Of a stretch of 64,000 bases of DNA, positions 3,881 through 61,948 are shown in pieces. Position 1 is the first letter of the stretch; each line of letters opens with the position of its first letter. The notes below the pieces were generated by a model, which worked only from the letters and a program-made list of their open reading frames with translations, made no database searches and was not told the origin of the DNA. The stretch covers positions 203,630,978 to 203,694,977 of the forward strand of contig CP136066.1 of the NCBI GenBank assembly GCA_032622095.1, read 5' to 3'. Both the position numbers and the translations under genes were made by a program. This stretch comes from Siphonodentalium dalli (Eukaryota > Mollusca > Scaphopoda > Gadilida > Siphonodentaliidae).

Positions 3881-4332
3881 ATATATGACCCGCCATATCA
3901 AATCCAGTCGTACGTCGGGATTTTTTTTTACCCTGTGCCAATGCATTCTCTTATATATGCGAGTCGACCATAGGTCGCCTCGCATATATAAGAGAATGCA
4001 TTGGTCTAACAATTTTTTACAATTTTAATAATTTTTTCTTGTATTCTTTAACAATTTTATAATTTCACCCATACAGAGCGCCCAGACAAACATGAGCAGA
4101 TGACACTCTTCTATATGCTTCTATATATGTGTGGGGCTCCCTGCAGGGTAATGGATGTTTTTTATTTTATGTCCTAAAAATTGTAAGAAAAAATGATAAA
4201 AAATTGTTAGGCCAATGCATTCTCTTATATATGCGAGGCAACCTATGGTCGACTCGCATATATAAGAGAATGCATTGGCACAGGGAAAAAAAATCCCGAC
4301 TTACGACTGGATTTGATATGGCGGGTCACATA
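3881..4332. mobile_element. H element: foldback with outer arm TATATGACCCGCC
   Basis: Outer arms of about 40 bp (TATATGACCCGCCATATC, AAATCCAGTCGTA) are inverted at the two ends. Inside are two copies of the GCCAATGCATTCTC hairpin module with the TCGACCATAGGTCGCC loop, separated by an AT-rich spacer and edged by CCCTGTGCC/GGCACAGGG. The core is the same as in the TTAA families A and C, but the outer ends differ. No clear target duplication. Confidence 0.75.
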
Positions 4333-4536
4333 TTTCAAATAGCTGGGTTGACATATTTAACCCAGACTGCATGTCTATACTATACATATACATCAGTTAC
4401 TGGTATTTAGGTCATATGGGCAATTTGTTTTGATTGTCACACAGCCAGCGTGATAACTCGTGCCCACTCCCCCCCCCATATATTCACCTTGGATATGACG
4501 TCATATATATATATGATGTACTCACCTGTCAAAGGT

Positions 4537-4794
4537 TTAATCCTTCCATGACTGGAGCTTCCTGAAAATTTGCAAAAACCCTGTGCCAATGCATTCTCTT
4601 ATATATGCGAGTCTTCCACTGGGAGCCTCGCATATATAAGAGAATATATTGGCCTAACAATATTTACGTTCACCTTGTAAGCCAGTGCATTCTCTTACAT
4701 ATTCGAGGCTACCTATATATGCATATATAAGAGAATGCACTGGCACATGATTTTTAATGCTGCACCAGCGCAGTTCCTGTCATGAATCGATTAA
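4537..4794. mobile_element. TTAA MITE, family B
   Basis: TTAA-bounded, with left end TCCTTCCATGACTGGAGC and a decayed right end GTCATGAATCGA. It contains two ATGCATTCTCTTATATATGC hairpins (the B loop is of TCTCCCATAGGGAGCC type), an ACCCTGTGCC edge and GCTGCACCAGCGCAG near the right end. It begins at position +30 of the intron after the 4824-4927 exon. Confidence 0.8.
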
Positions 4795-4823
4795 TAATCA
4801 CAGGATTAATGGGAACAACTTAC

Positions 4824-4927
4824 CTGATAATCTCTCCATATTCATCCCACTTTATTCTCTCTTCATGGAATGGATACATTGGATATGATTTCTTAGCTTG
4901 CTTGAAGAATCCAACTCTATTTTTACC
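4824..4927 (-). CDS. CPSF2: CPSF2 exon, [10 protein letters not shown] conserved block
   Basis: The frame reads [20 protein letters not shown] and then [14 protein letters not shown] plus AG. This is one of the best conserved parts of CPSF100 and corresponds to the segment described as binding the CPSF160-WDR33 module (PIM). The acceptor is ACTTCCAG and the donor GTAAGT from 4823. It starts in phase 0 and ends with two codon bases. The following exon (expected to begin Arg or Lys, then Pro-Glu-Asp-Phe) was not found between 1 and 4823 and probably lies to the left of the window. A B-family MITE begins at donor +30. Confidence 0.96.
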
Positions 4928-5008
4928 CTGGAAGTTAGAATGGCGTTCTGAATCAATTATGAATTAAGCAAGCGCTGGAGATATAACCAAAACAAGTGTT
5001 TACATGTA

Positions 5009-5231
5009 CAGTAATGCCCTAAATAATCAACTCCTTAACCACAGCAGAATTATGGGTAATTTTTCAGGATTTAGTTGGAAATATGGCTTGTTGTCATTCA
5101 TCGGAAAGCTCTCAGTGAGAGCTTTCCGATGGATGGCAACAAGCCATATTTCCAGATATTTCCAACTAAATCCTGAAAAATTACCCATAATTCTGCTGTG
5201 GTTAAGGAATCAATTATTTAGGGCATTACTG
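5009..5231. mobile_element. D-family foldback MITE (Tc1/mariner-like)
   Basis: A nearly perfect palindrome from CAGTAATGCCCTAAATAATC to its reverse complement, flanked by TA on both sides. Arms hold CCACAGCAGAATTATGGGTA, TCAGGATTTAGT and GCTTGTTGCCATTCATCGG, meeting at AGCTCTCAGTGAGAGCT. The TA target and CAGT ends are Tc1/mariner-like (inference; no transposase). Reference copy for the other D entries. Confidence 0.9.
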
Positions 5232-5385
5232 TATAACAATGGATGAAAATCCAACATGAAGGCACAAATAGAAATTTCAGTACATTATGATTTGACAAGC
5301 AAAAATATGTTAGAATATAGGCAATTTAACTCTGACAGTATGTACAGTGACCAACTCAGTTGCTGATTGGTAGAAAATATCTGCT

Positions 5386-5415
5386 ATCATCGAATCGGAT
5401 TGAGTACCTTTAATG
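5386..5415. mobile_element. R element terminal fragment
   Basis: ATCGGATTGAGTACCTTTAA is the same terminus as that of the R element at 10210-10630. A hAT element is inserted directly after it. Confidence 0.55.
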
Positions 5416-6061
5416 CAGGGTTTCCGCTATAGTGGCAGGGGATCCCTTTTTGGGCCCCATTCCCCCAGCCAATTTCCCCCCTTCTGTCATACCACAGGAC
5501 ATATTCCATATGCATACAGGTATAAAGATGTCTACTTCTCAAATTCGTTGGGACAGTACTACGAAATTTATATAGTTGACAACTTTATTTGATTTCTAGC
5601 GAGAATGACGTCCCCAGAGGGTGAATACACACTCGGACCGATCTAACACGAACTGAGGAAGTGATCAAACCGGAGTTCACTAAAACACATGCTTTGGAGT
5701 CTGCTGGTTACGTTGCTGCGGTTAGACCACCGATAATTTAATCATGTTATATTCCGGTATGTTATGCATCCGAACTTTCTGCCGAGTCTTGAATAGTGGT
5801 CGTTTAACTTCAACGGGCGTGTTTCCATATACAGCAATTAATTTTTATCTAATGAATTTTCTATGTTTTAAAGTTATTGTGGTTGATAGCATAGAAACTT
5901 AGGTAGAAAATGGATGCAAAACGATCAGCAAATCTACTCTCTGTTTCTTCTATTGGCCGATATAACAAAAGTAGGTCCACTAGTGTTTCCACGAAAACAT
6001 TGACTGCATTTTCCCCTCGGCAGATACAGGACCCGTTCCCAAAAACCTAGCGGAAAGCCTG
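5416..6061. mobile_element. hAT-like nonautonomous element
   Basis: Ends CAGGGTTTCCGCTA and TAGCGGAAAGCCTG are inverted, with flanks CTTTAATG and TTTAATGA sharing seven bases, consistent with an 8-bp hAT duplication. 646 bp, no coding sequence recognised. A short E-like piece (GACGTCCCCAGAGGGTGAAT) sits at about 5605-5624. Confidence 0.8.
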
Positions 6062-6317
6062 TTTAATGACAAGTTTGTGTGCTCTTCAGAGATAACTTAG
6101 GTCCTCTTCACAAGCAGCACTCTGTCATCGGTGGTAGCTCACTAAATATCTTTTGTTAACTTTGATTTGACGCTTTGCGCAGCGAAACAATATGTTACGC
6201 ATCAATGCTTTGTCATAATTCTCTTGTTGTGACAAACTTTCCCGTCGGTTCAACTTGAATAGACCTTTACTTGATTAACTTATTGGTGTATCAACGACTT
6301 TCATTGAATTATAATTG

Positions 6318-6360
6318 TTGGGACCTCATTCTGCAAATGACAGACACACTATTTGCAGGC
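6318..6360. mobile_element. E-family right-end fragment
   Basis: GGGACCTCATTCTGCAAATG, then ACAGACACACTATTTGCAGGCTT: the right arm of E. The rest of 6062-6430 shows nothing else recognisable. Confidence 0.7.
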
Positions 6361-6430
6361 TTATCTAGAATAGCCATGAGATTTACAAATGACCACAGCT
6401 GTCAATCACATCATTATTAGCAGATATTTG

Positions 6431-6554
6431 TTAAATCTTTCAGTGCCACGGGCCGATCTCATCGGCCCTAATTTACGGTCTGTAGAGTGCCAGGGCTGAT
6501 AAAATCGGCCCTAAAAAAAACAAAAAAATTTGTTTTTTTTGTTTTTGGGTATGC
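6431..6554. mobile_element. TTAA MITE, family C, left part
   Basis: TTAAATCTTTCAGTGCCACG followed by the small hairpin GGGCCGATCTCATCGGCCC and a second GGGC...GCCC pair, then A/T runs. The matching right end is missing; the N element begins directly after it. Confidence 0.65.
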
Positions 6555-7665
6555 TTAACTCTTTCAACCCGGAGGCCCGCTGTAGCGGGCACGACGTCAT
6601 TTACGTTCACCCCGGTGGCCCGCTACAGCGGGCTGGCTTAACCATTCTCACTTCCCTACTTTATAACTAAATATTATAAACTTTATATTCAAGAAGGATC
6701 AATGTATATACCACGATGATTGTTATTGGAATCAATATTGTACTCCCACTGGAGGTGCTGCGAAAAATTACGTCAGGAAAATCCATAAACAGACCAGAAC
6801 TGTCATTTTTTTAGATTTAAAAAAAAATTGGGGTCATATCCGTTATATGGGGACACCGTTTAACGACGTTAATTTGAGGTATTTTAAAGGCCTGGGGGCC
6901 GACCTGCCCAGGAACAGTTATAAATTGACACAGATGGGAAGCGCCTGGATCGGCTTATAATTTATATGTAAGTGTCTCAATGTTGTTGGAGAGAGAAATT
7001 TATTTGCATGTGTTATATGGCTTAATGACCATAAAATCAATAGTATAGCTACATTTCAAGACATCCAATATTTGCCTAGCAACGGTTGTTAGGGTTGAAC
7101 CAAGCTGAGATTATTGTAGAACTAGAATAATTCCCACAGACAATGGACACATATGTATATATACATGTATATCAAGTTCCATGCTTGTTATTTCGATGAA
7201 AAAATAACGAATTTACGCATGTCTCATTCTGATAACAGAGGGTTAATTGGTACCTTTTATAGCTAAGAATCTTACACATAGCAACCGTTGCTAACCAAAC
7301 ATGATACGAAAAATGCTCTTAGCTCATACCAGATATTTAAAATGTACTATTCGGTATGAAATGTGATTGCTATCCCATATTTCTGTTACATTATATACCA
7401 ATTTACATGGTATGGGTGATTTTTTTTAACAACCCTGTGGTTGCCTAGCAACCGTTGCCAAGGATGGTCATGCCATGCGTGTGATCATACCCGAAAACGA
7501 TGAGTATGGTCCAATGTATATATGGGCCAAGTTTCCTGTTTGTACAACATCTATCTCAATTTTATCGCATGGTACTAGCACTGAGACGCATTTCAGAGAA
7601 TTATCAGTAATAAATCCAGGGTTTGGTGGAATTTCCCCATGGAAATCCAGTGGTGAAAGAGTTAA
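6555..7665. mobile_element. N element: 1.1-kb TTAA-bounded transposon
   Basis: Left TTAACTCTTTCAACCCGG and right GTGGTGAAAGAGTTAA give a CTCTTTCA inverted end with TTAA on both sides. The left end carries a strong hairpin, GGCCCGCTGTAGCGGGC, and a second GCCCGCTACAGCGGGC. Inside are three CCTAGCAAC/GTTGCTA motifs (7076, 7278, 7440). The frame at 7475-7696 is not recognised. Piggybac-like by ends only. Confidence 0.7.
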
Positions 7666-7724
7666 GCATGCTATAGCGAATTTAAAAACAAACTGAATAA
7701 AACCTTAGGGGCATGTTATAACTC

Positions 7725-7867
7725 AACAAATGATGAAAAATTGTTAGGCCAATGCATTCTCTTATATATGCGAGGCGACCTATGGTCGACACGCATATAT
7801 AAGAGAATGCCTTGGCACAGGGTATATGGGTTGATACAAAAATCGGACTTGGCATTGAAAGGGTTAA
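7725..7867. mobile_element. TTAA MITE, family C, left-truncated, next to CPSF2 donor
   Basis: One hairpin module (ATGCATTCTC...TATATAAGAG), then CACAGGGTATATGGG, AAAATCGGACTTGGCATTG and AAAGGGTTAA. Its TTAA (7864-7867) occupies intron positions +7 to +10 after the CPSF2 donor at 7873. The left terminus is missing. Confidence 0.85.
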
Positions 7868-7873
7868 ACCTAC

Positions 7874-7979
7874 CTGTCCCTTCATCATGAGATCGTGCTT
7901 CCCTCCTTTAACCGACACGACTCCGTCGACCTCCATTTCAGTTTCGCTTTCATCACTCGATTCCATTTCTTCTCTCTCT
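7874..7979 (-). CDS. CPSF2: CPSF2 exon, acidic linker and KHDLMMKG block
   Basis: After the completing base, the exon reads EREEMESSDESETEMEVD and then GGKHDLMMKGQ. Family members carry SSDESD, an acidic stretch and KHDLMMKGE in the same order. The acceptor is CTTACAG with a TACTAAC branch-point match at 7991-7997. The donor is GTAGGT from 7873. The exon is 106 bp, the phase joins the preceding exon exactly and it ends in phase 0. A TTAA element (C family) begins at donor position +7, and a U element begins about 20 bp upstream of the acceptor AG, so very little original intron is left on either side. Confidence 0.96.
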
Positions 7980-8146
7980 CTGTAAGAATCGTTAGTAAAT
8001 TAACCCTTTCCATACTGAATGAATTCTCCCGTTTAGTTATATAAGTATACATTGGAACAGTATATTATTCATCTGGAGGGGTGTTCAGATAATAAAAACA
8101 GACGACAGACAGAAAAACAGATACATGTAACACAAGAGCCGCATGA

Positions 8147-8537
8147 TTAACCCTTTACCCAACAAACCGGCCAAAACTGGCCAAATAAAGCTTCAACAGC
8201 CTAAAATATCTTCGGTCTGTCTCAATAGAACCATACAAATATGGATATCATTGGAACCGGCTCCTTGACCACATTGTGATAGTTACAGTTATGCCCTGTG
8301 TCAATGCATTCTCTTATATATGCGAGTCGACCATAGGTCGCCTCGCATATATAAGAGAATGCATTGGCCTAAAAAAAAATCTTTTTTTACCATTTTTTCT
8401 TACATTCTTTAACAATTTTATAATTTTTAATGTGTTAAGCCAATGCATTCTCTTATATATGCGAGGCGACCTATGGTCGACTCGCATAAATAAGAGAATG
8501 CATTGGCACAGGGCCCTTCTGTTGGGTAAAGGGTTAA
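8147..8537 (-). mobile_element. TTAA MITE, family A
   Basis: Ends TTAACCCTTTACCCAACA and TGTTGGGTAAAGGGTTAA. The long side arm (CCGGCCAAAACTGGCC, AGCTTCAACAGCCTAAAA, ATATGGATATCATTGGA) is on the left, so I call this orientation minus. Two hairpin modules flank an AT-rich spacer. It is inserted at the left TTAA of an L copy; the empty equivalent is at 49590 (ATGATTAAAGACATATTATG). Confidence 0.9.
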
Positions 8538-8912
8538 AGGCATATTATGAACTTGTTCGGGTGCGTAAAACGTGTAAAGTTAGTACTCAGGCGCTAAGCC
8601 AACTTGGGCAATGTAGCATTCAACTAACATCGCTGAAAATTGCAAAGAAATCGACCGTACCACTCCATAGAAAACATCATCTGAACTATGCTCAACTGTA
8701 AATATTTACATCTGAATTTGGGACGCAACTATCATCGATAAACTAACACAAAAATTTAGTTTGCCATCAAGAGTCACTGAATTTAATTAATATATAACAA
8801 TGATGGTGTGTGTTGTCAATTTGGATTAATATTCGTGAAAATAACTACTTTGAGCAAGATTGTTTTCCATTTCTGTTTGATCACCCTACCAGAGTGTTTC
8901 ACATCACTTTAA
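8534..8912 (+). repeat. L repeat, copy 1 (TTAAAG...CTTTAA)
   Basis: Shares about 370 bp with copies at 37103-37458 and 49590-49965: CTTGTTCGGGTGCGT, AGTTAGTACTCAGGCGCT, GACCGTACCACTCCATAGA and TTTCACATCACTTTAA. TTAA at both ends and a short AAAG/CTTT inversion suggest another TTAA element. The frame at 8276-8701 runs across L and A and is spurious. Confidence 0.7.
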
Positions 8913-9220
8913 TATTCAGTGGTGGGAAATATATAGATAATAAGTTCAGCTTAATGAGTATTTAGTGTATCATAGAAAGGTTGACTTATTATCTGAATAT
9001 TTCCTAAGGGAACTATTCGTCAATGAGTATTTAGTACAGAAAGAATTAAACTTATTATCTGAACATTCCATAAGATAACTATTCATCAATGACTATTTAG
9101 TATGGAAAGAATTAAACTTATTATCTGAACATTTCATAAGATAACTATTCGTCAATGAGTATTTAGTATAGAAAGGGATAACCATCTCTAACAAGTTAGA
9201 ATTCCTCTATCTAGTAGACA

Positions 9221-9535
9221 GTGGCGCGGTGGTCGAGTGGATAGCTAGCGTGCTCGACTTGTAACTTCATGGTGTGAAAACCTCATGTCATGTCTCTGCC
9301 ATTTAACATCAAAAGCTAGGTTGTCTGCCTTCGACACGCAATCTCATAATAAAGTCGTGGCAGGGGGACTTGCCCATTCACTAAGTAACCAGTCGGGAGT
9401 CGATGGCTAATGTCAGCATGCTAATCATAATGTGCTCATTAGTTGCTCGGATTTCTTCCTCCTAAGTGAGCATGGGTAATCAGTGCCCTATGACCGGGCT
9501 AATAATCACACAAGGAGCAATATTTACATCATAAG
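9221..9535 (+). mobile_element. tRNA-derived SINE (probable)
   Basis: GTGGCGCGGTGGTCGAGTGG begins a tRNA-like head. TGGTCGAGTGG fits the A box of RNA polymerase III promoters exactly, and GGTGTGAAAACCTC about 45 bases on is a degenerate B box. A tRNA-unrelated body follows (GTCGTGGCAGGGGGACTTGC, GACCGGGCTAATAA). The cloverleaf is too decayed for a functional tRNA. The 3' border is approximate. Confidence 0.65.
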
Positions 9536-9649
9536 CCAGTTCTGTGATTGGTCAACAACCAATTGGGTCATCCCTTTCATACCCGAATAACACAGACCGT
9601 AACATGAACACAACATCACAAATTGTTGACCTAATCTGACATAATCACT

Positions 9650-10206: not shown

Positions 10207-10209
10207 GAA

Positions 10210-14312: not shown

Positions 14313-14573
14313 TTAACCCTTTCATGATGGGAGCAGCTGGTGCAGCATCAAAGATCCTGTGCCAGTGCATTCTCTTATATAAGCGAGTCGACCATAGGGA
14401 GCCTAGCATATATAAGAGAATGCACTGGCTAACAAGGTCAAGGAAAATATTGTTAGGCCAATGTATTCTCTTATATATGTGAGGCTCACCATGGGAGACT
14501 CGCATATAAAAAAAAACGAATTGGCACAGAGTTTTCGTAAACTTTCAGGAAGCTCCAGTCATGGAAGGATTAA
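14313..14573. mobile_element. TTAA MITE, family B
   Basis: TTAACCCTTTCATGATGGGA, GCTGGTGCAGCATCAAAGAT, two hairpins (GTCGACCATAGGGAGCC and CTCACCATGGGAGACTC loops), TTCAGGAAGCTCCAGTCATG and GGATTAA. Its right TTAA (14570-14573) is also the left TTAA of the next A element. Confidence 0.85.
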
Positions 14574-14993
14574 CCCTTTACCCAACAGAACGGCCCTGTG
14601 CCAATGCATTCTCTTATATATGCGAGTCGACCATAGGTCGCCTCGCATATATAAGAGAATGCATTGGCTTAACACATATTAAAAATGATAAAATTGTCAA
14701 AGAATGTAGAAAAATATTATAAAAATTGTTAAAAAATGTAAGAAAAAATTATAAAATTGTTAAAGAATGTAAGAAAAAAATGGTAAAAAGTGTTAAATTT
14801 TTTTTTTTTTAGGCCAATGGTCGACTCGCATATATAAGAGAATGCATTGGCACAGGGCATAACTGTAACCATCACAATGAACCGGTTCCAATGATATCCA
14901 TATTTGTATGGTATTATTGAGACAGACCGAAGATATTTTAGGCTGTTGAAGCTTTATTTGGGCGTTTTTGGCCGCTTTGTTGGGTAAAATGAT
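14570..14993 (+). mobile_element. TTAA MITE, family A, right end damaged
   Basis: The short arm is on the left (TTAACCCTTTACCCAACAGA). The second hairpin has lost part of its left arm at about 14815 and the right end stops at TGTTGGGTAAAATGAT instead of GGTAAAGGGTTAA. The damaged second hairpin is the left border of the segmental triplication that follows. Confidence 0.8.
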
Positions 14994-15489: not shown

Positions 15490-15766
15490 TTAACCCTTTA
15501 ATGATGGGAACTGTGCTGGTGCAGCATTAAAGATCCTGGGTAAGTGCATTCTCTTATACATGTAAATGTATATGCGAGTCTCACATAGGGAGCCTTGCAT
15601 ATATAGGAGAATGCACTGGCTTACAAAGTCAAGGTAAATATTGTTAGGCCAATGTATTCTCTTATATATGTGAGGCTCCCTATGGGAGACTCATATATAT
15701 ATGAGAGAATGCATTGGCACAGGGTTTTCGTAAAATTTCAGAAAGTTCCAATCATGAAAGGGTTAA
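15490..15766. mobile_element. TTAA MITE, family B (in duplication copy 1)
   Basis: TTAACCCTTTAATGATGGGA at the left and AATCATGAAAGGGTTAA at the right, with two hairpin modules. Copies at 17324-17600 and 18816-19092 come from the segmental duplication, not separate insertions. Confidence 0.85.
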
Positions 15767-15771
15767 CTGAA

Positions 15772-15870: not shown

Positions 15871-16014
15871 TAACTGAACATTTCCCACCAATGAATAGGA
15901 ATCCTTCTGTACTTGTATTATCAGTCGTCTGATTATTTTTCCTGAAAGCCCCTCCAGTTAAATAATAGACCATTCCAAAGACTATGTTTATATCTCACTG
16001 GGAGAATCCATATA

Positions 16015-16620
16015 GTAACAAGTCGAAACGTTATGTGACATGCGCTTAGCATGGCATATAGTCAGCAATCTGTAACAAGTCGAAACGTTATGTGACATGC
16101 GCTTAGCATGGCATATAGTCAGCAATCTGTAACAAGTCGAAACGTTATGTGACATGCGCTTAGCATGGCATATAGTCAGCAATCTGTAACAAGTCGAAAC
16201 GTTATGTGACATGCGCTTAGCATGGCATAAAGTCAGCAATCTGTAACAAGTCGAAACGTTATGTGACATGCGCTTAGCATGGCATATAGTCAGCAATCTG
16301 TAACGAGTCGAAACGTTATGTGACATGCGCTTAGCATGGCATAAAGTCAGCAATCTGTAACAAGTCGAAACGTTATGTGACATGCGCTTAGCATGGCATA
16401 TAGTCAGCAATCTGTAACAAGTCGAAACGTTATGTGACATGCGCTTAGCATGGCATAAAGTCAGCAATCTGTAACGAGTCGAAACGTTATGTGACATGCG
16501 CTTAGCATGGCATATAGTCAGCAATCTGTAACAAGTCGAAACGTTATGTGACATGCGCTTAGCATGGCATAAAGTCAGCAATCTGTAACGAGTCGAAACG
16601 TTATGTGACATGCGCTTAGC
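16015..16620. repeat. 57-bp satellite block 1 (about 10.6 units)
   Basis: The unit starts GTAACAAGTCGAAACGTTAT and contains GACATGCGCTTAGCATGGCA. Two variable sites (AACAAG/AACGAG and CATATAG/CATAAAG) partly alternate. 57 is a multiple of 3, so the minus strand stays open (AKRMSHNVSTRYRLLT...); this is not a gene. The block follows the U-like sequence ATCCATATAGTAACAAG. Confidence 0.95.
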
Positions 16621-18111
16621 CAATGCATTCTCTTATATATGTGAGGCGACCTATGGTCGACTCGCATATATAAGAGAATGCATTGGCACAGGGCATAACT
16701 GTAACCATCACAATGAACCGGTTCCAATGATATCCATATTTGTATGGTATTATTGAGACAGACCGAAGATATTTTAGGCTGTTGAAGCTTTATTTGGGCG
16801 TTTTTGGCCGCTTTGTTGGGTAAAATGATATGAACTACAAACCAGATATTTTATGCCATATTGAATCTCAAAAAGATTTCATGCCATGGTTTCATGTCCA
16901 ACCAAATCTCAAATCCTAAAACCATATATCTATAGATATAAATGAGTAGGATCACAGATGCCTGGACCAATTTCAAACCAAATTTGGTGTGGTAAGTCGG
17001 AGTATACCCGATGGATGTTATAACGGTGTTAGATTTTTGGATTTATGGATATATTATCAAGTTTTTTTGAATGTTTTTAAAAATCAATGTTTAAATGATC
17101 AAAATGTGCACTTCCCACTCAAAGGGGCAATTGTCTAAGATGTAACTGTGTGTGGCCCCTCCGATGCTGAATAAAGGCCTGTGAATGGTATTTTAAATCA
17201 TATTTCATGTTGAATGTTTATCACTATAAACCCTTGCTATAGTAAATACTTATTGATGAGTAGTTCCCATATGAAATAGTCAGATAATAAGTTCCAACAA
17301 ATAACAGTCATTAGTTGAACTTATTAACCCTTTAATGATGGGAACTGTGCTGGTGCAGCATTAAAGATCCTGGGTAAGTGCATTCTCTTATACATGTAAA
17401 TGTATATGCGAGTCTCACATAGGGAGCCTTGCATATATAGGAGAATGCACTGGCTTACAAAGTCAAGGTAAATATTGTTAGGCCAATGTATCCTCTTATA
17501 TATGTGAGGCTCCCTATGGGAGACTCATATATATATGAGAGAATGCATTGGCATAGGGTTTTCGTAAAATTTCAGAAAGTTCCAATCATGAAAGGGTTAA
17601 CTGAACAAGAATGAGGTCCCCAGAGGGTGAATTTAGTGATGCTACTAAATTCACCCTCTGGGGACCTCATTCTGCAAATGACAGATACGCTATTTCAAGG
17701 CTTGTAACTGAACATTTCCCACCAATGAATAGGAATCCTTCTGTACTTGTATTATCAGTCGTCTGATTATTTTTCCTGAAAGCCCCTCCAGTTAAATAAT
17801 AGACCATTCCAAAGACTATGTTTATATCTCACTGGGAGAATCCATATAGTAACAAGTCGAAACGTTATGTGACATGCGCTTAGCATGGCATATAGTCAGC
17901 AATCTGTAACAAGTCGAAACGTTATGTGACATGCGCTTAGCATGGCATAAAGTCAGCAATCTGTAACGAGTCGAAACGTTATGTGACATGCGCTTAGCAT
18001 GGCATATAGTCAGCAATCTGTAACAAGTCGAAACGTTATGTGACATGCGCTTAGCATGGCATAAAGTCAGCAATCTGTAACGAGTCGAAACGTTATGTGA
18101 CATGCGCTTAG
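16619..18111. repeat. Segmental duplication, copy 2
   Basis: It starts at a complete hairpin module (CCAATGCATTCTCTTATATA) joined to a broken satellite unit at CTTAG, then repeats copy 1 in order. Between copies 2 and 3 I noticed essentially one difference outside the satellite (GGCATAGGG against GGCACAGGG). Confidence 0.9.
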
Positions 18112-18112: not shown

Positions 18113-20424
18113 CAATGCATTCTCTTATATATGTGAGGCGACCTATGGTCGACTCGCATATATAAGAGAATGCATTGGCACAGGGCATAACTGTAACCAT
18201 CACAATGAACCGGTTCCAATGATATCCATATTTGTATGGTATTATTGAGACAGACCGAAGATATTTTAGGCTGTTGAAGCTTTATTTGGGCGTTTTTGGC
18301 CGCTTTGTTGGGTAAAATGATATGAACTACAAACCAGATATTTTATGCCATATTGAATCTCAAAAAGATTTCATGCCATGGTTTCATGTCCAACCAAATC
18401 TCAAATCCTAAAACCATATATCTATAGATATAAATGAGTAGGATCACAGATGCCTGGACCAATTTCAAACCAAATTTGGTGTGGTAAGTCGGAGTATACC
18501 CGATGGATGTTATAACGGTGTTAGATTTTTGGATTTATGGATATATTATCAAGTTTTTTTGAATGTTTTTAAAAATCAATGTTTAAATGATCAAAATGTG
18601 CACTTCCCACTCAAAGGGGCAATTGTCTAAGATGTAACTGTGTGTGGCCCCTCCGATGCTGAATAAAGGCCTGTGAATGGTATTTTAAATCATATTTCAT
18701 GTTGAATGTTTATCACTATAAACCCTTGCTATAGTAAATACTTATTGATGAGTAGTTCCCATATGAAATAGTCAGATAATAAGTTCCAACAAATAACAGT
18801 CATTAGTTGAACTTATTAACCCTTTAATGATGGGAACTGTGCTGGTGCAGCATTAAAGATCCTGGGTAAGTGCATTCTCTTATACATGTAAATGTATATG
18901 CGAGTCTCACATAGGGAGCCTTGCATATATAGGAGAATGCACTGGCTTACAAAGTCAAGGTAAATATTGTTAGGCCAATGTATCCTCTTATATATGTGAG
19001 GCTCCCTATGGGAGACTCATATATATATGAGAGAATGCATTGGCACAGGGTTTTCGTAAAATTTCAGAAAGTTCCAATCATGAAAGGGTTAACTGAACAA
19101 GAATGAGGTCCCCAGAGGGTGAATTTAGTGATGCTACTAAATTCACCCTCTGGGGACCTCATTCTGCAAATGACAGATACGCTATTTCAAGGCTTGTAAC
19201 TGAACATTTCCCACCAATGAATAGGAATCCTTCTGTACTTGTATTATCAGTCGTCTGATTATTTTTCCTGAAAGCCCCTCCAGTTAAATAATAGACCATT
19301 CCAAAGACTATGTTTATATCTCACTGGGAGAATCCATATAGTAACAAGTCGAAACGTTATGTGACATGCGCTTAGCATGGCATATAGTCAGCAATCTGTA
19401 ACAAGTCGAAACGTTATGTGACATGCGCTTAGCATGGCATATAGTCAGCAATCTGTAACAAGTCGAAACGTTATGTGACATGCGCTTAGCATGGCATATA
19501 GTCAGCAATCTGTAACAAGTCGAAACGTTATGTGACATGCGCTTAGCATGGCATATAGTCAGCAATCTGTAACAAGTCGAAACGTTATGTGACATGCGCT
19601 TAGCATGGCATAAAGTCAGCAATCTGTAACGAGTCGAAACGTTATGTGACATGCGCTTAGCATGGCATATAGTCAGCAATCTGTAACAAGTCGAAACGTT
19701 ATGTGACATGCGCTTAGCATGGCATAAAGTCAGCAATCTGTAACGAGTCGAAACGTTATGTGACATGCGCTTAGCATGGCATATAGTCAGCAATCTGTAA
19801 CGAGTCGAAACGTTATGTGACATGCGCTTAGCATGGCATATAGTCAGCAATCTGTAACGAGTCGAAACATTATGTGACATGCGCTTAGCATGGCATATAG
19901 TCAGCAATCTGTAACGAGTCGAAACATTATGTGACATGTGCTTAGCATGGCATAAAGTCAGCAATCTGTAACGAGTCGAAACGTTATGTGACATGTGCTT
20001 AGCATGGCATATAGTCAGCAATCTGTAACGAGTCGAAACGTTATGTGACATGCGCTTAGCATGGCATAAAGTCAGCAATCTGTAACGAGTCGAAACGTTA
20101 TGTGACATGTGCTTAGCATGGCATATAGTCAGCAATCTGTAACGAGTCGAAACGTTATGTGACATGTGCTTAGCATGGCATATAGTCAGCAATCTGTAAC
20201 GAGTCGAAACATTATGTGACATGCGCTTAGCATGGCATAAAGTCAGCAATCTGTAACGAGTCGAAACGTTATGTGACATGTGCTTAGCATGGCATATAGT
20301 CAGCAATCTGTAACGAGTCGAAACGTTATGTGACACGCGCTTGGCATGGCATATAGTCAGCAATCTGTAACGAGTCGAAACATTATGTGACATGCGCTTA
20401 GCATGGCATATAGTCAGCAATCTG
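18112..20424. repeat. Segmental duplication, copy 3
   Basis: Same order of parts as copies 1 and 2, with the longest satellite block. It ends in unique sequence after GCAATCTGCAACTGATG, so this is the outer border of the array. Confidence 0.9.
19341..20424. repeat. 57-bp satellite block 3 (about 19 units)
   Basis: The early units match blocks 1 and 2. Units after about 19750 carry further variants (AACATTATG, GACATGTGC, GACACGCGCTTGGC), so the distal part is older or less homogenised. The minus-strand open frame of 381 codons is a product of the 57-bp period. Confidence 0.95.
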
Positions 20425-23682: not shown

Positions 23683-24125
23683 TTGCTATCCCAATAATTC
23701 TTAGCTGGTTTAACCCTTTACCCAACAGAACGGCCCTGTGCCAATGCATTCTCTTATATATGCGAGTCGACCATAGGTCGCCTCGCATATATAAGAGAAT
23801 GCATTGGCTTAACACATTAAAAATTATAAAATTGTTAAAGAATGTAAGAAAACATGGTAAAAAGATTTTTTTAGGCCAATGCATTCTCTTATATATGCGA
23901 GGCGACCTATGGTCGACTCGGATATATATAAGAGAATGCATTGGCACAGGGCATAACTGTAACTATCACAATGTGGTCAAGGAGCCGGTTCCAATGATAT
24001 CCATATTTGTATGGTTCTATTGAGACAGACCGAAGATATTTTAGGCTGTTGAAGCTTTATTTGGTCGGTTTTGGCCGGTTTGTTGGGTAAAGGGTTAAGT
24101 AGGAGCAGACTTGGACTAATCAATG
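23683..24125. mobile_element. M-element terminal fragment split by A
   Basis: CTATCCCAATAATTCTTAGC and TGGTTT left of the insertion, then GAGCAGACTTGGACTAATC on the right, correspond to the M terminus at 13186-13235, where the same sequence is uninterrupted. Confidence 0.75.
23710..24098 (+). mobile_element. TTAA MITE, family A
   Basis: TTAACCCTTTACCCAACAGA to GTTGGGTAAAGGGTTAA; short arm left. Two complete hairpin modules with reciprocal loops. The M copy at 13186-13235 shows the site before insertion. Confidence 0.92.
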
Positions 24126-26743: not shown

Positions 26744-27067
26744 ATCAATGATTCCCTAGTGAGGAGATATGGTGTGTATAACTCCTTTTATCAATGATTC
26801 CCTAGTGAGGAGATATGGTGTGTAGAACTCCTTTTATCAATGATTCCCTAGTGAAGAGATATGGTGTGTAGAACTCCTTTTATCAATGATTCCCTATAGT
26901 GAGGAGATATGGTGTGTAGAACTCCTTTTATCAATGATTCCCTAGTGAGGAGATATGGTGTGTAGAACTCCTTTTATCAATGATTCCCTAGTGAGGAGAT
27001 ATGGTGTGTAGAACTCCTTTTATCAATGATTCCCTAGTGAGGAGATATGGTGTGTAGAACTCCTTTT
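26744..27067. repeat. Minisatellite, 46-bp unit, 7 copies
   Basis: ATCAATGATTCCCTAGTGAG plus GAGATATGGTGTGTAGAACT and CCTTTT. Units are almost identical (one carries TATAGTGAG, one GTGAAGAG), so it is a young array. Confidence 0.95.
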
Positions 27068-28926: not shown

Positions 28927-29316
28927 TTAACCCTTTACCCAACAAACCGGCCAAATAAAGCTTCAACAGCCTAAAATATCTTCGGTCTGTCTCAATAGAA
29001 CCATACACATATGGATATCATTGGAACCGGCTCCTTGACCACATTGTGATAGTTACAGTTATGCCCTGTGCCAATGCATTCTCTTATATATGCGAGTCGA
29101 CCATAGGTCGCCTCGCATATATAAGAGAATGCATTGGCCTAAAAAAAACGTTTTTTTAACACTTTTTACCATTTTTTCTTACATTCTTTAACAATTTTAT
29201 AATTTTTAATGTATTAAGCCAATGCATTCTCTTATATATGCGAGGCGACCTATGGTCGACTCGCATATATAAGAGAATGCATTGGCACAGGGCCCTTCTG
29301 TTGGGTAAAGGGTTAA
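28927..29316 (-). mobile_element. TTAA MITE, family A
   Basis: TTAACCCTTTACCCAACAAA to GTTGGGTAAAGGGTTAA, long arm left, two hairpin modules, T-run spacer. Nearly the same as 59619-60018. Confidence 0.92.
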
Positions 29317-37465: not shown

Positions 37466-37793
37466 TTAACCCTTTACCCAACAAACCGGCCAAATAAAGC
37501 TTCAACAGCCTAAAATATCTTCGGTCTGTCTCAATAGAACCATACAAATATGGATATCATTGGAACCGGCTCCTTGACCACATTGTGATAGTTACAGTTA
37601 TACCCTGTGCCAATGCATTCTCTTATATATGCGAGTCGACCATAGGTCGCCTCGCATATATAAGAGAATGCATTGGCCTAAGAAAATGTGTTAAGCCAAT
37701 GCATTCTCTTATATATGTGAGGCGACCTATGGTCGACTCGCATATATAAGAGAATGCATTGGCACAGGGCCCTTCTGTTGGGTAAAGGGTTAA
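37466..37793 (-). mobile_element. TTAA MITE, family A, short spacer
   Basis: Long arm left; the spacer between the hairpins is cut to GAAAATGTGTTAA. Inserted eight bases past the end of L copy 2. Confidence 0.9.
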
Positions 37794-40161: not shown

Positions 40162-40561
40162 TTAACCCTTTACCCAACAGAACGGCCCTGTGCCAATGCA
40201 TTCTCTTATATATGCGAGTCGACCATAGGTCGCCTCGCATATATAAGAGAATGCATTGGCTTAACACATTAAAAATTATAAAATTGTTAAAGAATGTAAG
40301 AAAAAATGGTAAAAAGTGTTAAAAAAAGATTTTTTTTAGGCCAATGCATTCTCTTATATATGCGAGGCGACCTATGGTCGACTCGCATATATATGAGAAT
40401 GCATTGGCACAGGGCATAACTGTAACTATCACAATGTGGTCAAGGAGCCGGTTCCAATGATATCCATATTTGTATGGTGTTATTGAGACAGACCGAAGAT
40501 ATTTTAGGCTGTTGAAGCTTTATTTGGCCGGTTTTGGCCGGTTTGTTGGGTAAAGGGTTAA
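40162..40561 (+). mobile_element. TTAA MITE, family A, inside E
   Basis: TTAACCCTTTACCCAACAGA to GTTGGGTAAAGGGTTAA, short arm left. The E copy at 43184 reads CTGCAAATTAGGGGATATA at this place, giving the empty site. Confidence 0.95.
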
Positions 40562-44832: not shown

Positions 44833-45233
44833 TTAACCCTTTACCCAACAGAAGGGCCCTGTGCCAATGCATTCTCTTATATATGCGAGTCGACCATAGG
44901 TCGCCTCGCATATATAAGAGAATGCATTGGCTTAACACATTAAAAATTATAAAATTGTTAAAGAATGTAAGAAAAAAATGGTAAAAAGTGTTAAAAAAAG
45001 ATTTGTTTTAGGCCAATGCATTCTCTTATATATGCGAGGCGACCTATGGTCGACTCGCATATATAAGAGAATGCATTGGCACAGGGCATAACTGTAACCA
45101 TCACAATGTGGTCAAGGAGCCGGTTCCAATGATATCCATATTTGTATGGTTCTATTGAGACAGACCAAAGATATTTTAGGCTGTTGAAGCTTTATTTGGG
45201 CGGTTTTGGCCGGTTTGTTGGGTAAAGGGTTAA
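44833..45233 (+). mobile_element. TTAA MITE, family A
   Basis: Full length, short arm left, TTAA at both ends. Confidence 0.93.
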
Positions 45234-51974: not shown

Positions 51975-52486
51975 CTTTAGTCTGAGCTTGTGCAGCATGA
52001 AAGATCCTGTGCCAGTGCATTCTCTTATATATGCGAGTCTCCCATAGGGAGTCTCGCATATATAAGAGAATGCACTGGCTTATAAGGTCAAGGTAAATAT
52101 TGTTAGGCCAATGTGTTCTCGTATATCTATGACGGGAGCTGCGCTGGTGCAGCATTAAAGACTACATGCCAGTACAATCTCTTATATAAGTGTCTTAATC
52201 GAGTCTCCAATAGGGAGCCTCGCATAAACAAGAGTATGCACTGGCTTACAAGGTCAAGGTAAATATTGTTAGGCCAATGTATTCTCTTATATATGCAAGG
52301 CTCCCTATGGGAGCCTCGCATATATAAGAGAATGCACTGGCTTACAAGGTCAAGGTAAATATTGCTAGGCCAATGTATTATCTTATATATGCAAGGCTCC
52401 CTATGGGAGACTCCCATATATAAGAGAATACATTGGCACAGGGTTTTTTGCAAAATTTCAAGATGCTCCACTCATGGAAGTGTTAA
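51975..52486. mobile_element. TTAA MITE family B, concatenated form
   Basis: At least four or five hairpin modules in a row, with the linker CTTACAAGGTCAAGGTAAAT, ATTGTTAGGCC between them. A second outer piece, GACGGGAGCTGCGCTGGTGC, appears in the middle (about 52133), so two or more B copies have fused. It ends CTCATGGAAGTGTTAA. Confidence 0.8.
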
Positions 52487-55290: not shown

Positions 55291-55317
55291 CATGGCCTCA
55301 CATCGAGGTTTATATAT

Positions 55318-56289: not shown

Positions 56290-56338
56290 GGGGACGTCGT
56301 GTGGGGCGACGGTTATAGACTCGCCCAATTTTCTTAAA

Positions 56339-56820
56339 GTGTCACTACGCGATGTGACTCGTCTACTGCAAAGTCTATGCACTGATAGACGCAGGTCACG
56401 CGGTAGCCTCTCGACCATCAAATGCCCGCATTTCGACGAAAACGAAAGTAGTTGTAATTATAAATACCTGAATGGAATGTATAACACGGACCCATGTAAT
56501 TACTTTGTATTCGCCGACTACACAAGGACCAGAGGACATAAACTCAAATTACAAGGGACAAAATACAAAAAGGATATCAGCAAATATTTTTTCACAAATC
56601 GTGTAATTTCTCATTGAAACAGTTTACCTGATTTCGTAGTCGAAAGTGGGTCATTGGAAGATTTCAAGAAAGGCATAGACTCATATTGCAATGCCGGTAA
56701 ATACAGCCATGATTTTGAAGACCAGTGACATTTAATTTCATTTCTGATGTATGATATTTAACTGATCCGGGACAAAGAGCCAGAGGCTCTTCAGATAGAT
56801 ATAGATTCCTGCAGGTGGTG
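56339..56820 (+). mobile_element. LINE 3' end: C-terminus of a CR1/Jockey-like ORF2 plus 3' UTR
   Basis: The frame has YLNGMYNTDPCNYFVFADYT, TRGHKLKL, KKDISKYFFTNRVISH, then TGA at 56615, then NSLPDFVVESGSLEDFKKGI and DSY, ending at 56728. The family pattern is TRGH-x-x-K-L, YFF-x-x-R-V-x-x-x-WNSLP-x-x-VV, FK-x-x-LD, so the in-frame TGA stands where Trp (TGG) is expected. The 3' part has the hairpin GAGCCAGAGGCTC. It is 5'-truncated, in antisense to CPSF2, and dead. Confidence 0.85.
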
Positions 56821-57548
56821 TACTAATTTACACACTTAAGTATTTTTATGTGTAGGTCCATTTAAACTTTCCACATCCTGACATAGCTCAGGCATGGATT
56901 GAACCATCTTAAATCGACCAATTATCTTGTTGATTAGATGCCTAACTAGCTTGCGAACAAAGCAATTATTTGGTACTATAAGATATTGAATGTTGGTGTG
57001 TAATGAATACAAAACCACACATGCAAGTGAAGGAGGTAAATTTTATCACACTCATTTGTTATGCCCCAAATTACAACTAATGATCCGTTGCTTGAGTCTG
57101 ATGGTTCTCAGTGTAATGTGTCACTGCAAAAACTTGTGTGATAATGTACAACATATTCACACAGCCTGTGTTGTTTTCTCTATCCTATTATAATAATAAT
57201 AATATTGTTGGGCTTAATATAGCACTTAACAGATTGCTTGTTCCAAACCACTCTTAAAACAATAAACTATTTTCGCAGTCATTAGTACAAGCCAACCAAT
57301 AAACTGACTTTTCTTCAAGTACACTGTGGCAGTTTGATCAGAACATGTTCTGATAGTGATTGGTATGACAAACTGACTGACATCTGTTTAACACTTACAT
57401 AACATGAGGTCATAGTAGTATGAATTATCTTATCAAATGATTGATAACTGTTTAACAACTACATAATGTGAGGTCATAGAGGTATGAATTATCTTATCAA
57501 ATGATGCAACTGAGTGGGAGGTTCAAGCATCACAGAAAATCATTTTGT
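56821..57548. other. Intron stretch; short local repeat only
   Basis: AATTATCTTATCAAATGATTG and ATGTGAGGTCATAG occur twice near 57400-57510. The minus frame at 56836-57018 is not recognised. Confidence 0.45.
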
Positions 57549-57940
57549 TTAACCCTTTACCCAACAGAACGGCCCTGTGCCAATGCATTCTCTTATATAT
57601 GCGAGTCGACCATAGGTCGCCTCGCATATATAAGAGAATGCATTGCCTTAACACATTAAAAATTATAAAATTGTTAAAGAATGTAAGAAAAAAAATGGTA
57701 AAAAAAGATTTTTTTTAGGCCAATGCATTCTCTTATATATGCGAGGCGACCTATGGTCGACTCGCATATATAAGAGAATGCATTGGAACAGGGCATAACT
57801 GTAACCATCACAATGTGGTCAATGAGCCGGTTCCAATGATATCCATATTTGTATGGTTCTATTGAGACAGACCGAAGATATTTTAGACTGTTGCAGCTTT
57901 ATTTGGCCGTTTTTGGCCGGTTTGTTGGGTAAAGGGTTAA
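57549..57940 (+). mobile_element. TTAA MITE, family A
   Basis: Full length, short arm left; GCATTGCCTTAACAC and GGAACAGGG are private variants. Confidence 0.92.
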
Positions 57941-58130
57941 TGCTCTCAGACAATATGGCACAGGGCATAACTGTAACCATCACAATGTGGTCAATGAGCC
58001 GGTTCCAATGATATCCATATTTGTATGGTTCTATTGAGACAGACCGAAGATATTTTAGACTGTTGCAGCTTTATTTGGCCGTTTTTGGCCGGTTTGTTGG
58101 GTAAAGGGTTAATGCTCTCAGACAATATGC
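57941..58130. repeat. Tandem duplication of the A right end
   Basis: TGCTCTCAGACAATATG after the A element is followed by a second GGCACAGGGCATAACTGTAA to GTAAAGGGTTAA and again TGCTCTCAGACAATATG. The two copies look identical over about 155 bp, so the event is recent. Confidence 0.93.
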
Positions 58131-58198
58131 CTTTGAACCCTGGCTCCCCACAACGATCCACACCCTGACCATGGGCTCCCAGTGGTATTTTTTGATAT

Positions 58199-58905
58199 TG
58201 TGGCCAGTGTTTAGGCGTATGGTGTTGTGTATGTTCAAGTGGAGTCACATGTCTGAAACTTTAGAGCTATGATCCCCATGGACCACTGATTATTTTACGA
58301 TCTGGTTACATTGCCACATGGTCACTCCTTGGTAACGGTTGCTAGGCAACTACCCGATATTGAAAGTAAAATACAATTATTGCTTTTATCGTCGTAATTC
58401 AGCCCAGGGAAATGGCGTTTTTGATGCAGTCGACACCCTATTGTGAAATTTGAGATATATCTGGCCAGAAGTGTGATCCTAACTTTTATTTAAGGGTAGC
58501 AACGGTTGCTAAGCAAATATCCCAAATGATCGAATGAGACCATTGCCCTGTGTATTCAATTGTAGTATGCCCCAATTTAGACATTCCTTGGAATGGACAT
58601 GTTGATGGTTATGTTCAAATGGTGCTACATGTCTGAAACTTTACAGGTATGTTCCCATGGGTCACTGTGTATTTTTGTGAGATTGGTATACTTTGCCACA
58701 CGATCACTCTCTGGTAACGGTTCCTATGCAACTACCTGAACTGAAAGTATTATGCAATTATAGCTTATAGCGTCGTATAATTCCGCACTAAGAAACTGCG
58801 TTTTCTATGCAGTCAATACTCTATTGTGAAATTTGAGATACATCAGGTCAGAAGAGTGAACCTAACTTGTATTTAACGTATCAATGGTTGCTAAGCATAT
58901 ACCCA
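58199..58905. repeat. V repeat: two 381-bp tandem units with GTTGCTAGGCAAC-like motifs
   Basis: ACATGTCTGAAACTTTA occurs at 58247 and 58628; CACTCCTTGGTAACGGTTG, TGCAGTCGACACCCTATTG and GTAGCAACGGTTGCTAAGC have matching partners. Related motifs occur in the N element. No coding sequence recognised. Confidence 0.75.
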
Positions 58906-58949
58906 TGATCTGCTGTGGTTAAGGAGTCGATTATTTATGGCATAATGTA
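58901..58949. mobile_element. D-family right-end fragment
   Basis: ACCCATGATCTGCTGTGGTT, AAGGAGTCGATTATTTATGG, CATAATG. Confidence 0.75.
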
Positions 58950-59404
58950 TTTACAATCAATATGTTTATTAATGTGAAGTAAAAGAGAATGGTTGTTTTT
59001 ATCGGATTGCAGTTCTGTAAAATGATTTCTGCTTTTACTGAGATTTGTACCTTTCACACGCACACCACGAAAAATCAATGAGAAATTTGTCAACAGCACG
59101 GAAACATTCATAAAATATTCAAGAGAGGTTCCCAGTTTACCAACAAATTAGACTTTTATTCTAATCGAGCACCAGTTAGGCTGACATTCCTAATATCTAC
59201 AAGCTTATAGCAAATGCTCCAGCCATTTATCAATGCAATCAAGTGAGATCGAGTTACATTACCCAAGAGAAGGAACGTCGCCTTATAGGAGTGAACTGTG
59301 AAATAATGTCTCTGGTCATGGAATCAGTAATTTACAGATATGGAAGGCGTTCACTGTGGGTGAAGCTGAAAAATAATACAAAGCTTGTATGAAAACAAGA
59401 AGTT
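58950..59404. other. Intron stretch, nothing recognised
   Basis: ATATGGAAGGCGTTCACTGT at 59339 resembles ATATGGAAGGCGTTTGTGGT at 26635; otherwise no signal. Confidence 0.4.
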
Positions 59405-59530
59405 GCACATCGGGTGCTGGGATATAACCCCATGGTGCACCTCAGGTGCTGGGATACCCACATGGTGTATCTCGGGTGCTGGGATACCCACATGGTGCAT
59501 CTCGGGTGCTGGGATACCCCCATGGTGCAC
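59405..59530. repeat. 30-bp minisatellite, 4 copies
   Basis: GGGTGCTGGGATACCCACAT plus GGTGCATCTC. The 30-bp period keeps frames open on both strands. Confidence 0.9.
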
Positions 59531-59618
59531 CTCGGGCAGCCTAGAGGTTTCACATTGGGAGATGTCACTTTGGTTATTAGGGAGAAGTGGACTGTTATCA
59601 GGGAGAAATAACAATGGC

Positions 59619-60018
59619 TTAACCCTTTACCCAACAAACCGGCCAAAACCGGCCAAATAAAGCTTCAACAGCCTAAAATATCTTCGGTCTGTCTCAATAG
59701 AACCATACAAATATGGATATCATTCGAACCGGCTCCTTGACCACATTGTGATAGTTACAGTTATGCCCTGTGCCAATGCATTCTCTTATATATGCGAGTC
59801 GACCATAGGTCGCCTCGCATATATAAGAGAATGCATTGGCCTAAAAAAAATCTTTTTTTAACACTTTTTACCATTTTTTCTTACATTCTTTAACAATTTT
59901 ATAATTTTTAATGTGTTAAGCCAATGCATTCTCTTATATATGCGAGGCGACCTATGGTCGACTCGCATATATAAGAGAATGCATTGGCACAGGGCCCTTC
60001 TGTTGGGTAAAGGGTTAA
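59619..60018 (-). mobile_element. TTAA MITE, family A
   Basis: Long arm left, full length; S-cassette pieces lie on both sides (59575-59610, 60019-60060), so it is inserted in S. Confidence 0.92.
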
Positions 60019-60275
60019 GTTCAATTTACATCCCAACATCATCCTTCTATGATCCAATAAGTATTATGTAGAACAAGTACATTTTATTGCATAAATTTGC
60101 AGTGCAAAGACACCCAATCATAGTGATTGTTATCTGTATTTTAGAGTTATTGTTCTTTGCTGTTACAGTTTTTATTTACAAACAAGGATTTCAAATATTT
60201 CTTTACTATGAACATGAATAAGCTGGTAGAATAGAATAAACGGGGAATCTAATGGTTGTCACTCAGATTCTTGTA

Positions 60276-60373
60276 TTAACCCTTTGAGTGCCAGGGGCCG
60301 ATCTCATCGGCCCTAAACCTACAAAATAAGTCTGTTAAAGAATATAAGAATAAATTATTAAAATTGTAAAAAA

Positions 60374-60408
<35 letters not shown>

Positions 60409-60531
60409 TTAAGCCAATGCATTCTCTTATATATGCAAGGCGACCTATGGTCGACTCGCATATATAAGAGAATGAATTGGCACAGGGTATATGGGTTGAT
60501 ACCAAAATCGACCTGGCACTCAAAGGGTTAA
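60276..60531. mobile_element. TTAA MITE, family C, with long A run
   Basis: TTAACCCTTTGAGTGCCAGG, GGGCCGATCTCATCGGCCC, an A run of about 29, one hairpin module, CACAGGGTATATGGG and CCTGGCACTCAAAGGGTTAA. Confidence 0.93.
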
Positions 60532-60794
60532 TCAATACAATTCTTTATTTATAGACAATCAAATAAATGTTTGTTCCGCATGCATGCAGGCCTCGATCGT
60601 CTCTCTCTAATTTTTGGCACAAGACACCAGCGTCATTAACTTCACCTTCTTGAGAAATCATTCTGCAAATATCCAGCATTATATTCTCAGACCTGGTATT
60701 AAATGAGTTCTACTCTAAAAGTGCAGGTAATCAGGTTATCATTATATTCCCCCATTTCAAGCCTGTGCCCAAAATATGGAATGTGCCCCAAATA

Positions 60795-61010
60795 CAGTAA
60801 ATAAATTGACTCCTTAACCACAGCCGAATTATGGGTAAATTTTCAGAATTTAGTCAGAAATATGGCTTGTTGCCATTCATCGGAAAGCTCTCTCACAGCA
60901 GAATTATGGGTAACTTTTCAGGATTTAGTTGGAAATATGGCTTGTTGCCATTCATTGGAAAGCTCTCAATTCTGCTGTGGTTGAGGAGCCGATTATTTAG
61001 GCCATTACTG
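60795..61010. mobile_element. D-family MITE, arms rearranged
   Basis: CAGTAAATAAATTGACTCC to GCCATTACTG; the left arm is doubled (two GGATTTAG/GGCTTGTTGCCATTCAT pieces) and the right arm is reduced to its outer 45 bases. Confidence 0.85.
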
Positions 61011-61703
61011 TAAACATGATACTGGAATATATAGCACTGAGAAATATTTGACTATACTGAAATGCTTCCATAGAAGATGATTTTAATGAAAAATTATCCT
61101 CCAATTGATCATTCTCAGAAATCTAAAGCAAGTATTTCAAGTTTTCTGTCTAAATTAAAAAATTTGTCCTCCTGCCTGCTCAATTTTTCATATATAAAAT
61201 CATTGATATGACAATTATTTAATTCTGTTAAATATCACGGAATGAACCATATGGCTCGCCCTGAAGTGCCCAAATTATACTAATATAAAGGCCTTCAGGA
61301 AATAAACTGCGTTATGATTCATTCTATACAGAACTGTCAGCAGACAAAAGTCCAGACTTTGTAAATCTCCGAGGATTCCACACAATTATATCTGCCTTTG
61401 TGATAGATTGGAGAAATATGTGGTCGGCATTTCAGCTTTGGCACCCGAGGTGTGTACAAATTATCAGTGCCCCCAAACCCCAGCTGGGTGAATCTGTAAG
61501 CTGAGATCCAAGCATGGTGCCCATCCTATCCCAGCTGTGACCAATTCATCAAGTATTCATTGGATAAAGATTGTTTTTTCGGTCAGCTCCCATGACAAAG
61601 TCGATTAAGCTCTGTCCATTTCATCTAATACATCATTTAGTGTCCACTACAGATAACCTAAGATTAAATCTACCCTGCTTTCCTGTTATTTCCGTTTCCT
61701 CGA
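61011..61703. other. Intron stretch, nothing recognised
   Basis: No repeat or coding signal I can support. Confidence 0.5.
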
Positions 61704-61948
61704 TTAACCCTTTGAGTGCCAGGAGCCGATCTCATCGGCCCTAAACCTACAAAATAAGTCTGTTAAAGAATATAAGAATAAATTATTAAAATTGTAAAAT
61801 AAAAAAAAAATAAAAAAATAAATTATTAGGCCAATGCATTCTCTTATATATGCGAGGCGACCTATGGTCGACTCGCATATATAAGAGAATGCATTGGCAC
61901 AGGGTATATGGGTTGATACAAAAATCGACCTGGCACTCAAAGGATTAA
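61704..61948. mobile_element. TTAA MITE, family C
   Basis: TTAACCCTTTGAGTGCCAGG to CCTGGCACTCAAAGGATTAA, one hairpin module, A-rich spacer. Its right TTAA runs straight into the T element. Confidence 0.93.

Follow-up and report, generated by a model that had tools for sequence, protein, structure and literature searches.

How does one and the same hairpin core come to lie in families of small transposable elements whose ends differ? The question is raised by a window of 64,000 nucleotides (the whole stretch of DNA analysed here) from the scaphopod mollusc Siphonodentalium dalli (assembly GCA_032622095.1, contig CP136066.1, positions 203,630,978 to 203,694,977), in which four families of miniature inverted-repeat transposable elements (MITEs), named A, B, C and H, share a palindromic hairpin. 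Mosaic copies combining parts of different families suggest that cores and ends have probably been exchanged between the families through the shared hairpins, the core not transposing by itself. The source assembly comprises 2,226,750,531 bases in nine contigs, with the window located on the contig labelled C6. The window is AT-rich (GC content about 38%), and neither tRNA genes (tRNA scan) nor Rfam matches at gathering score were found in it.

The shared hairpin and its carriers

The shared unit is a near-perfect palindrome of 69 bp, consisting of a 27-bp stem, one unpaired base per side, an inner stem of 5 bp and a loop of three bases. Folded as DNA, four units of the window reached -35.4 to -37.8 kcal/mol (z -13.8 to -16.0), and none of 200 shuffles folded as well as these. 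In families A and H, two opposed hairpins flank an AT-rich spacer and form a module with the edges CCCTGT and ACAGGG (borders CCCTGTGCC/GGCACAGGG), and both complete window copies of C carry a single hairpin. With regard to foldback elements, the hairpins do fold but sit internally rather than terminally; a module-free C element named C0 (158..325, forward strand, TTAA on both sides) is palindromic over its whole length.

That one hairpin is common to the four families had been proposed in an earlier, sequence-only reading of this DNA, and this is borne out. With up to three mismatches, GCCAATGCATTCTC was found 96 times in the window compared to a mean of 7.06 in shuffled sequence, a number reached by none of 100 shuffles, and hairpin-bearing copies of A, B, C and H were all read directly. 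The A end CCCTTTACCCAACA occurred 21 times compared to 0.41 in shuffles (up to two mismatches). The additional claim of a stem kept to the base holds for the consensus, in which the two A sides, C and H do not differ by a single base, but not for every copy and not for B, which differs. Likewise, the loop described as family-specific reflects a real difference of A, C and H from B, which nevertheless concerns mostly the inner stem and not the loop, namely CGACC/GGTCG in A, C and H versus CTCCC/GGGAG in typical B, with intact pairing in both. Three of the five units labelled b2 feature B ends together with A-type inner stems. A fourth one (14361..14429, forward strand), situated in the B element at 14317..14569, has a mixed inner stem, whose left side is A-type and whose right side is B-type (TCGACCATAGGGAGCC). 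In addition, two segmental copies on contig C1 (L049 and L050) show a hairpin module joined to yet another type of end, TACATTGTACAAATA preceding CCCTGTG.

Genome-wide, the 27-base hairpin arm yielded 210,486 forward and 209,914 reverse matches with up to two mismatches, i.e., at least 420,400 arms, which would correspond to about 200,000 hairpins per genome. These arm counts are lower bounds, and the reversed arm, used as a control, gave no match. The copies are patchily distributed, 29 arm matches being confined to six of the 20 stretches (10 kb each) that were picked by position. Between 0.7 and 0.93 Mb of contig C1, C and A hairpins recur at regular steps of about 11.2 kb and 14.5 kb, pointing to large tandem segmental arrays.

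The A end, the B end CCCTTTCATGA and the C end CCCTTT[C/G]AGTGCCA all lie between copies of TTAA. This tetranucleotide borders both sides of 19 of the 21 aligned A copies (one of the others has TTAG/TTAG, one is devoid of its right end) and all seven C copies, two of them segmental copies, and it was seen by eye around the B copies of the window. Ends of the piggyBac type generally begin with CCC or CCY, which fits the termini CCCTTT...AAAGGG, and in these features A, B and C resemble MITEs of the piggyBac type. The piggyBac transposase (PF13843) is represented genome-wide by 128 matches, many of them in open frames of 500-720 amino acids without internal stop. As for an autonomous partner, the 900-bp 3' flanks of 15 of these 128 matches contained none of the A, B or C ends next to TTAA; one flank (L096) contained an 11-base B-like match with two mismatches, not beside TTAA.

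Family H features other ends. The sequence-only reading had assigned it an end with TATAT, which includes the target duplication and has to be corrected to GTGACCCGCC. Identical 4-bp flanks (ATAT, AAAT or ATTT) border eight of 11 copies, with L042, L048 and L051 as exceptions. Sola2 elements have a target duplication of 4 bp, and H, which is unassigned, is at most a candidate Sola2-type family. The ends of A, C and H are mutually unrelated although their hairpin consensus is the same. Thus, with TTAA in A, B and C and differing 4-bp flanks in H, one core is carried by at least two kinds of target duplication. Separate enzymes would presumably move the TTAA-type and the H-type ends.

Mosaic copies and probable exchange between families

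As the hairpin consensus is the same on the A sides, in C and in H, the spacers can be used as family tags. The native junction of the A short end, hairpin and A-type spacer was found 37,066 times with up to two mismatches, and at the same threshold the A short end and hairpin led into a C/H-type spacer 285 times. Nineteen of these mosaic junctions are exact and spread over all nine contigs, and at least 100 have one mismatch or none. A second mosaic junction, in which a C end and hairpin precede an A-type spacer, was matched 68 times (six exact, eight with one mismatch). The two-mismatch matches in both sets were seen over their first 80 bases.

Five of these junctions, three from the set of 285 and two from the set of 68, were retrieved and part-mapped, with the A element at 40166..40557 (forward strand; double-hairpin module at 40186..40414, forward strand) as reference, and all proved to be mosaics. 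The copy L100 opens with TTAA and the A short arm, continues with a full-length H spacer and closes with the final part of the A long arm, after which TTAA recurs. L099 starts likewise with TTAA and the A short arm; an H spacer and the H-type A-run edge follow, and behind these lies an A spacer in inverted orientation. In L098, a C-like start passing into an H spacer is enclosed by A short arms. L101, with TTAA on either flank, is a C element in which the spacer begins with 37 bp of the A spacer, and in L102 a C arm is joined to the A spacer and this to the beginning of the A long arm, with neither end complete. Accordingly, it is supported that spacers were swapped between families as well as ends. 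Complete agreement of module and ends, named in the sequence-only reading as the outcome that would speak against exchange, was not found. The H spacers of L099 and L100 share up to 96.1% and 96.8% identity, respectively, with H copies, and the closest H-H pairs among those listed reach 96.8%. These two spacers thus fall within the diversity of H, so that the exchange is recent and the copies are not old ancestors.

Most probably, the families owe their mobility to the outer ends, which are of the CCCTTT type with TTAA duplications in A, B and C, H having GTGACCCGCC ends and an A(A/T)(A/T)T duplication. Different transposases would act on the two kinds, and the near-identical hairpins would serve as stretches of homology between copies of different families. 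Palindromes are sites of breakage, and cut-and-paste excision leaves breaks as well. Breaks at palindromes or excision sites may initiate the exchange, in which gene conversion, or template switching during repair of a broken copy, would move a spacer or an end into another family. The present families may have been founded when a mobile mosaic multiplied. A conversion with its limits in the two hairpins would produce a copy such as L100, and L099 and L102 resemble one-sided exchange. A more far-reaching proposal, which we put forward only tentatively, is that the hairpin pair acts as a hitch-hiking recombination cassette, by which a noncoding core could leave one transposase system and join another, the ends being of the TTAA type and the A(A/T)(A/T)T type. 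Families would then be made up of separable ends, hairpins and spacers in varying combination, with the hairpin outliving the families that carry it.

Several points weigh against the exchange of cores and ends. A donor copy was identified for none of the mosaics, which moreover account for less than 1% of the A-short-end junctions. The two-mismatch matches among the 285 and the 68 may include degenerate native copies. Both L098 and L102 are without intact ends, and L099 runs on into an inverted A spacer and thus requires more than one simple exchange. In addition, a mosaic that arose in a fixed copy may leave no descendants, and the mosaics are features of assembled sequence, in which errors at repeats may occur.

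The rarity of mosaics would also suit a different history, in which one ancestral core-bearing MITE had its ends replaced once per family and the mosaics arose by later, inconsequential conversion in dead copies. The association of ends and core, followed here in listed arm matches from the start of contig C1 with tandem segmental copies included, is in part consistent with this. All 100 listed H arms (15,892 matches genome-wide) enter the module edge or a near variant, as do 96 of the 100 listed A long arms (15,382 matches); three of the other four join the module further in and one meets the opposite arm. The B arm, with 3,271 matches, leads mostly into decayed module edges as judged by eye, without a count. 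The C arm TTGTATCAACCCATAT, on the other hand, exists both with and without the module, which speaks against this history. With 25,646 matches genome-wide, 70 of the 100 listed lead into the edge of the module or a close variant of it (broken shortly past the edge in one case), and 30 enter a module-free palindromic interior of the form seen in C0, the switch point lying sharply after CCCATAT. Besides, the target duplication of H is unlike that of A and C, and the hairpins of A, C and H are devoid of the family-specific changes that would be expected after a slow split. A single ancestor with one replacement of ends per family is accordingly regarded as unlikely.

The questions of module mobility and of selection on the hairpin

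The sequence-only reading had offered a module that is itself mobile as one of two explanations. In that case, each of the ancestors of A, B, C and H would have received its own insertion of the double hairpin, and the constant borders of the module would be in line with this. Module edges were counted by the pattern CCCTGTGCCAATGCATTC, in which the base fifteen positions before is not G, so that most C edges were left out. The total of 114,632 edges comprises 113,533 with a preceding purine and just 1,099 with a pyrimidine before CCCTGTG, a proportion that argues against independent insertions. Among the first 100 purine-preceded edges listed, 92 correspond to edges known from A, B, C or H, and the remaining eight trace to four loci after joining of duplicates and paired edges. 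About 95 of the first 100 pyrimidine-preceded edges listed were by eye recognisable, altered or shortened edges. A pattern for H-type edges lacking the H arm in front was matched 202 times, and 29 of the first 100 listed were still H-like by eye.

In total, 34 loci with unusual edges (14 and 20) were retrieved, and left and right flanks were compared in 28 loci. The best remaining support for a mobile module comes from eight loci with an H-type module and no H ends on either side (L012, L035 with its duplicate L052, L054, L061, L063, L073, L077 and L079), of which L077 may have TCTG on both sides as judged by eye. Nevertheless, these eight share no duplication, the lengths of their T/A-run edges vary, and the bases beside the module in A are unlike each other (ACGG on the left, CATA on the right). 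Several other loci retain one whole or partial H end or break inside the module. The solo modules with their own target duplication that had been suggested as a check did not emerge, as no common target duplication surrounds the module in the 28 loci compared or beside the modules in family copies. Flank repeats above the shuffle maximum occurred at varying distances in L065 (10 bp), L071 (12 bp, AT-rich) and L075 (14 bp), and likewise in L078 (24 bp, with one intact H end adjoining) and, within a tandem array, in L079 (28 bp); these five are read as damaged or rearranged copies. TTAA directly before CCCTGTG was absent from the 200 edges listed, no separate search for solo TTAA modules having been made. 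A self-mobile module was rejected, since a common duplication was not found in the loci compared and listed edges rarely lie outside the known end sets, and we regard it as improbable.

As its second explanation, the sequence-only reading had supposed that ends are swapped around a core kept under some selection. The swapping is matched by the mosaic copies, in which spacers were exchanged too; the selection was not shown. In A copies of the window together with L014, which were not chosen by hairpin match, 29 of 1380 hairpin bases and 30 of 1721 arm bases deviate from the consensus (p 0.51), the hairpin figure being driven by a single degraded copy. Without this copy, the hairpins deviate less than the arms (9/1242 versus 20/1555), which is likewise not significant (p 0.19). 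A functional role, e.g., as a binding site of a transposase or host factor, would keep the hairpins alike and would agree with their stable folds, with the inner-stem pairing intact across A-type and B-type, and with hairpins varying less than arms in copies retrieved by exact arm match, a choice that favours intact hairpins. The difference is not significant in the A copies not so chosen, however, and none of 45 one-sided stem changes in the A and H alignments, in which some H elements stand in both orientations, was compensated. Conservation by function thus appears very improbable as the source of the likeness, and from these comparisons selection on the hairpins is neither shown nor excluded.

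Mapped elements and relation to known systems

Among the elements mapped in the window, the H element at 3885..4329 (forward strand) has ATAT flanks on both sides and the end GTGACCCGCC with its first base altered, and its double-hairpin module extends from CCCTGT to ACAGGG at 3931..4285 (forward strand). Sequences similar to the middle of the H spacer, e.g., 4060-4160 (CCCATACAGAGCCCC...GGGGCTCCCTGCAGGG), recur in other surroundings in L049 and, in L048, downstream of its H copy; this middle part may be a further nested element. Further family A elements were mapped on the forward strand at 14574..14991 (right end degraded), 23714..24094, 44837..45229 and 57553..57936, and on the reverse strand at 8151..8533 (TTAA flanks), 28931..29312, 37470..37789 (short spacer) and 59623..60014. 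Family B is represented on the forward strand by the element at 14317..14569, whose right TTAA is common to the adjoining A element at 14574..14991, by 15494..15762 (TTAA flanks), and by 17328..17596 and 18820..19088, both copies within a tandem duplication; a run of several B-type hairpin units occupies 52011..52437 (forward strand). The two complete C elements, each with one hairpin and TTAA flanks, lie on the reverse strand at 60280..60527 and 61708..61944.

Other repeats accompany these elements. A 61-bp tandem repeat (AACAAGTCGAAACGTTATGTGACATGCGCTTAGCATGGCATATAGTCAGCAATCTGT-like) at 16000-16620, 17850-18110 and 19350-19600 passes at 16619 and 18111 directly into an A hairpin that is truncated, and it is found together with B copies inside tandem duplications of roughly 1.5-1.8 kb. 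At 5010-5240, a long near-perfect palindrome around CATCGGAAAGCTCTC is probably another foldback-like repeat, with similar sequence adjoining A or C elements in L001, L003 and L101. A minisatellite with a unit of about 45 bp (ATCAATGATTCCCTAGTGAGGAGATATGGTGTGTAGAACTCCTTTT) is situated at 26770-27065.

MITEs of the piggyBac type, e.g., mPok1 and mPok2 of Daphnia, are short and non-coding with a TTAA duplication, and 50 to 20,000 copies are quoted for metazoans (PMC4912750). A, B and C resemble them in all three features, and their host genome contains the 128 piggyBac transposase matches; the difference lies in the 37,066 copies of one A junction alone, above the quoted range, and in no autonomous element with A, B or C ends having appeared in the 15 flanks read. 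In Anopheles gambiae, the interior of P-element MITEs was proposed to derive from an ectopic template in gap repair, with the source unidentified, and one such MITE features the ends of two subfamilies (PMC1562414); here, donor-type and recipient-type families coexist and have the hairpin in common. Tetris and DAIBAM of Drosophila are modular, rearranged, palindromic non-autonomous elements with part of their sequence shared, namely the final parts of the terminal repeats (PMC4079207), whereas in the present families the core is shared and the ends differ. Likewise, MER6 with a SINE V domain is an example of a module spread by the burst of another element (PMC6887750), in that case one SINE domain in a mariner-derived MITE; the present core occurs in families whose target duplications are of two kinds at least. 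Thus, modular and composite elements are already known, and it is the scale that is striking here. The element strings had no match in the open-access literature, and among the papers listed for the concept none showed this arrangement in its title or the beginning of its abstract, which is no proof of absence.

The origin of MITE interiors unrelated to the parent transposon is an old question, for which ectopic repair from an unidentified source has been proposed (PMC1562414). In S. dalli, candidate donor and recipient families of very high copy number coexist, with mosaics between them, and exchange thereby becomes countable, mappable and datable. If homology between copies is supplied by the palindromic hairpins, a core whose transposase is lost could persist by joining other ends, and family trees built from ends alone or from cores alone would mislead.

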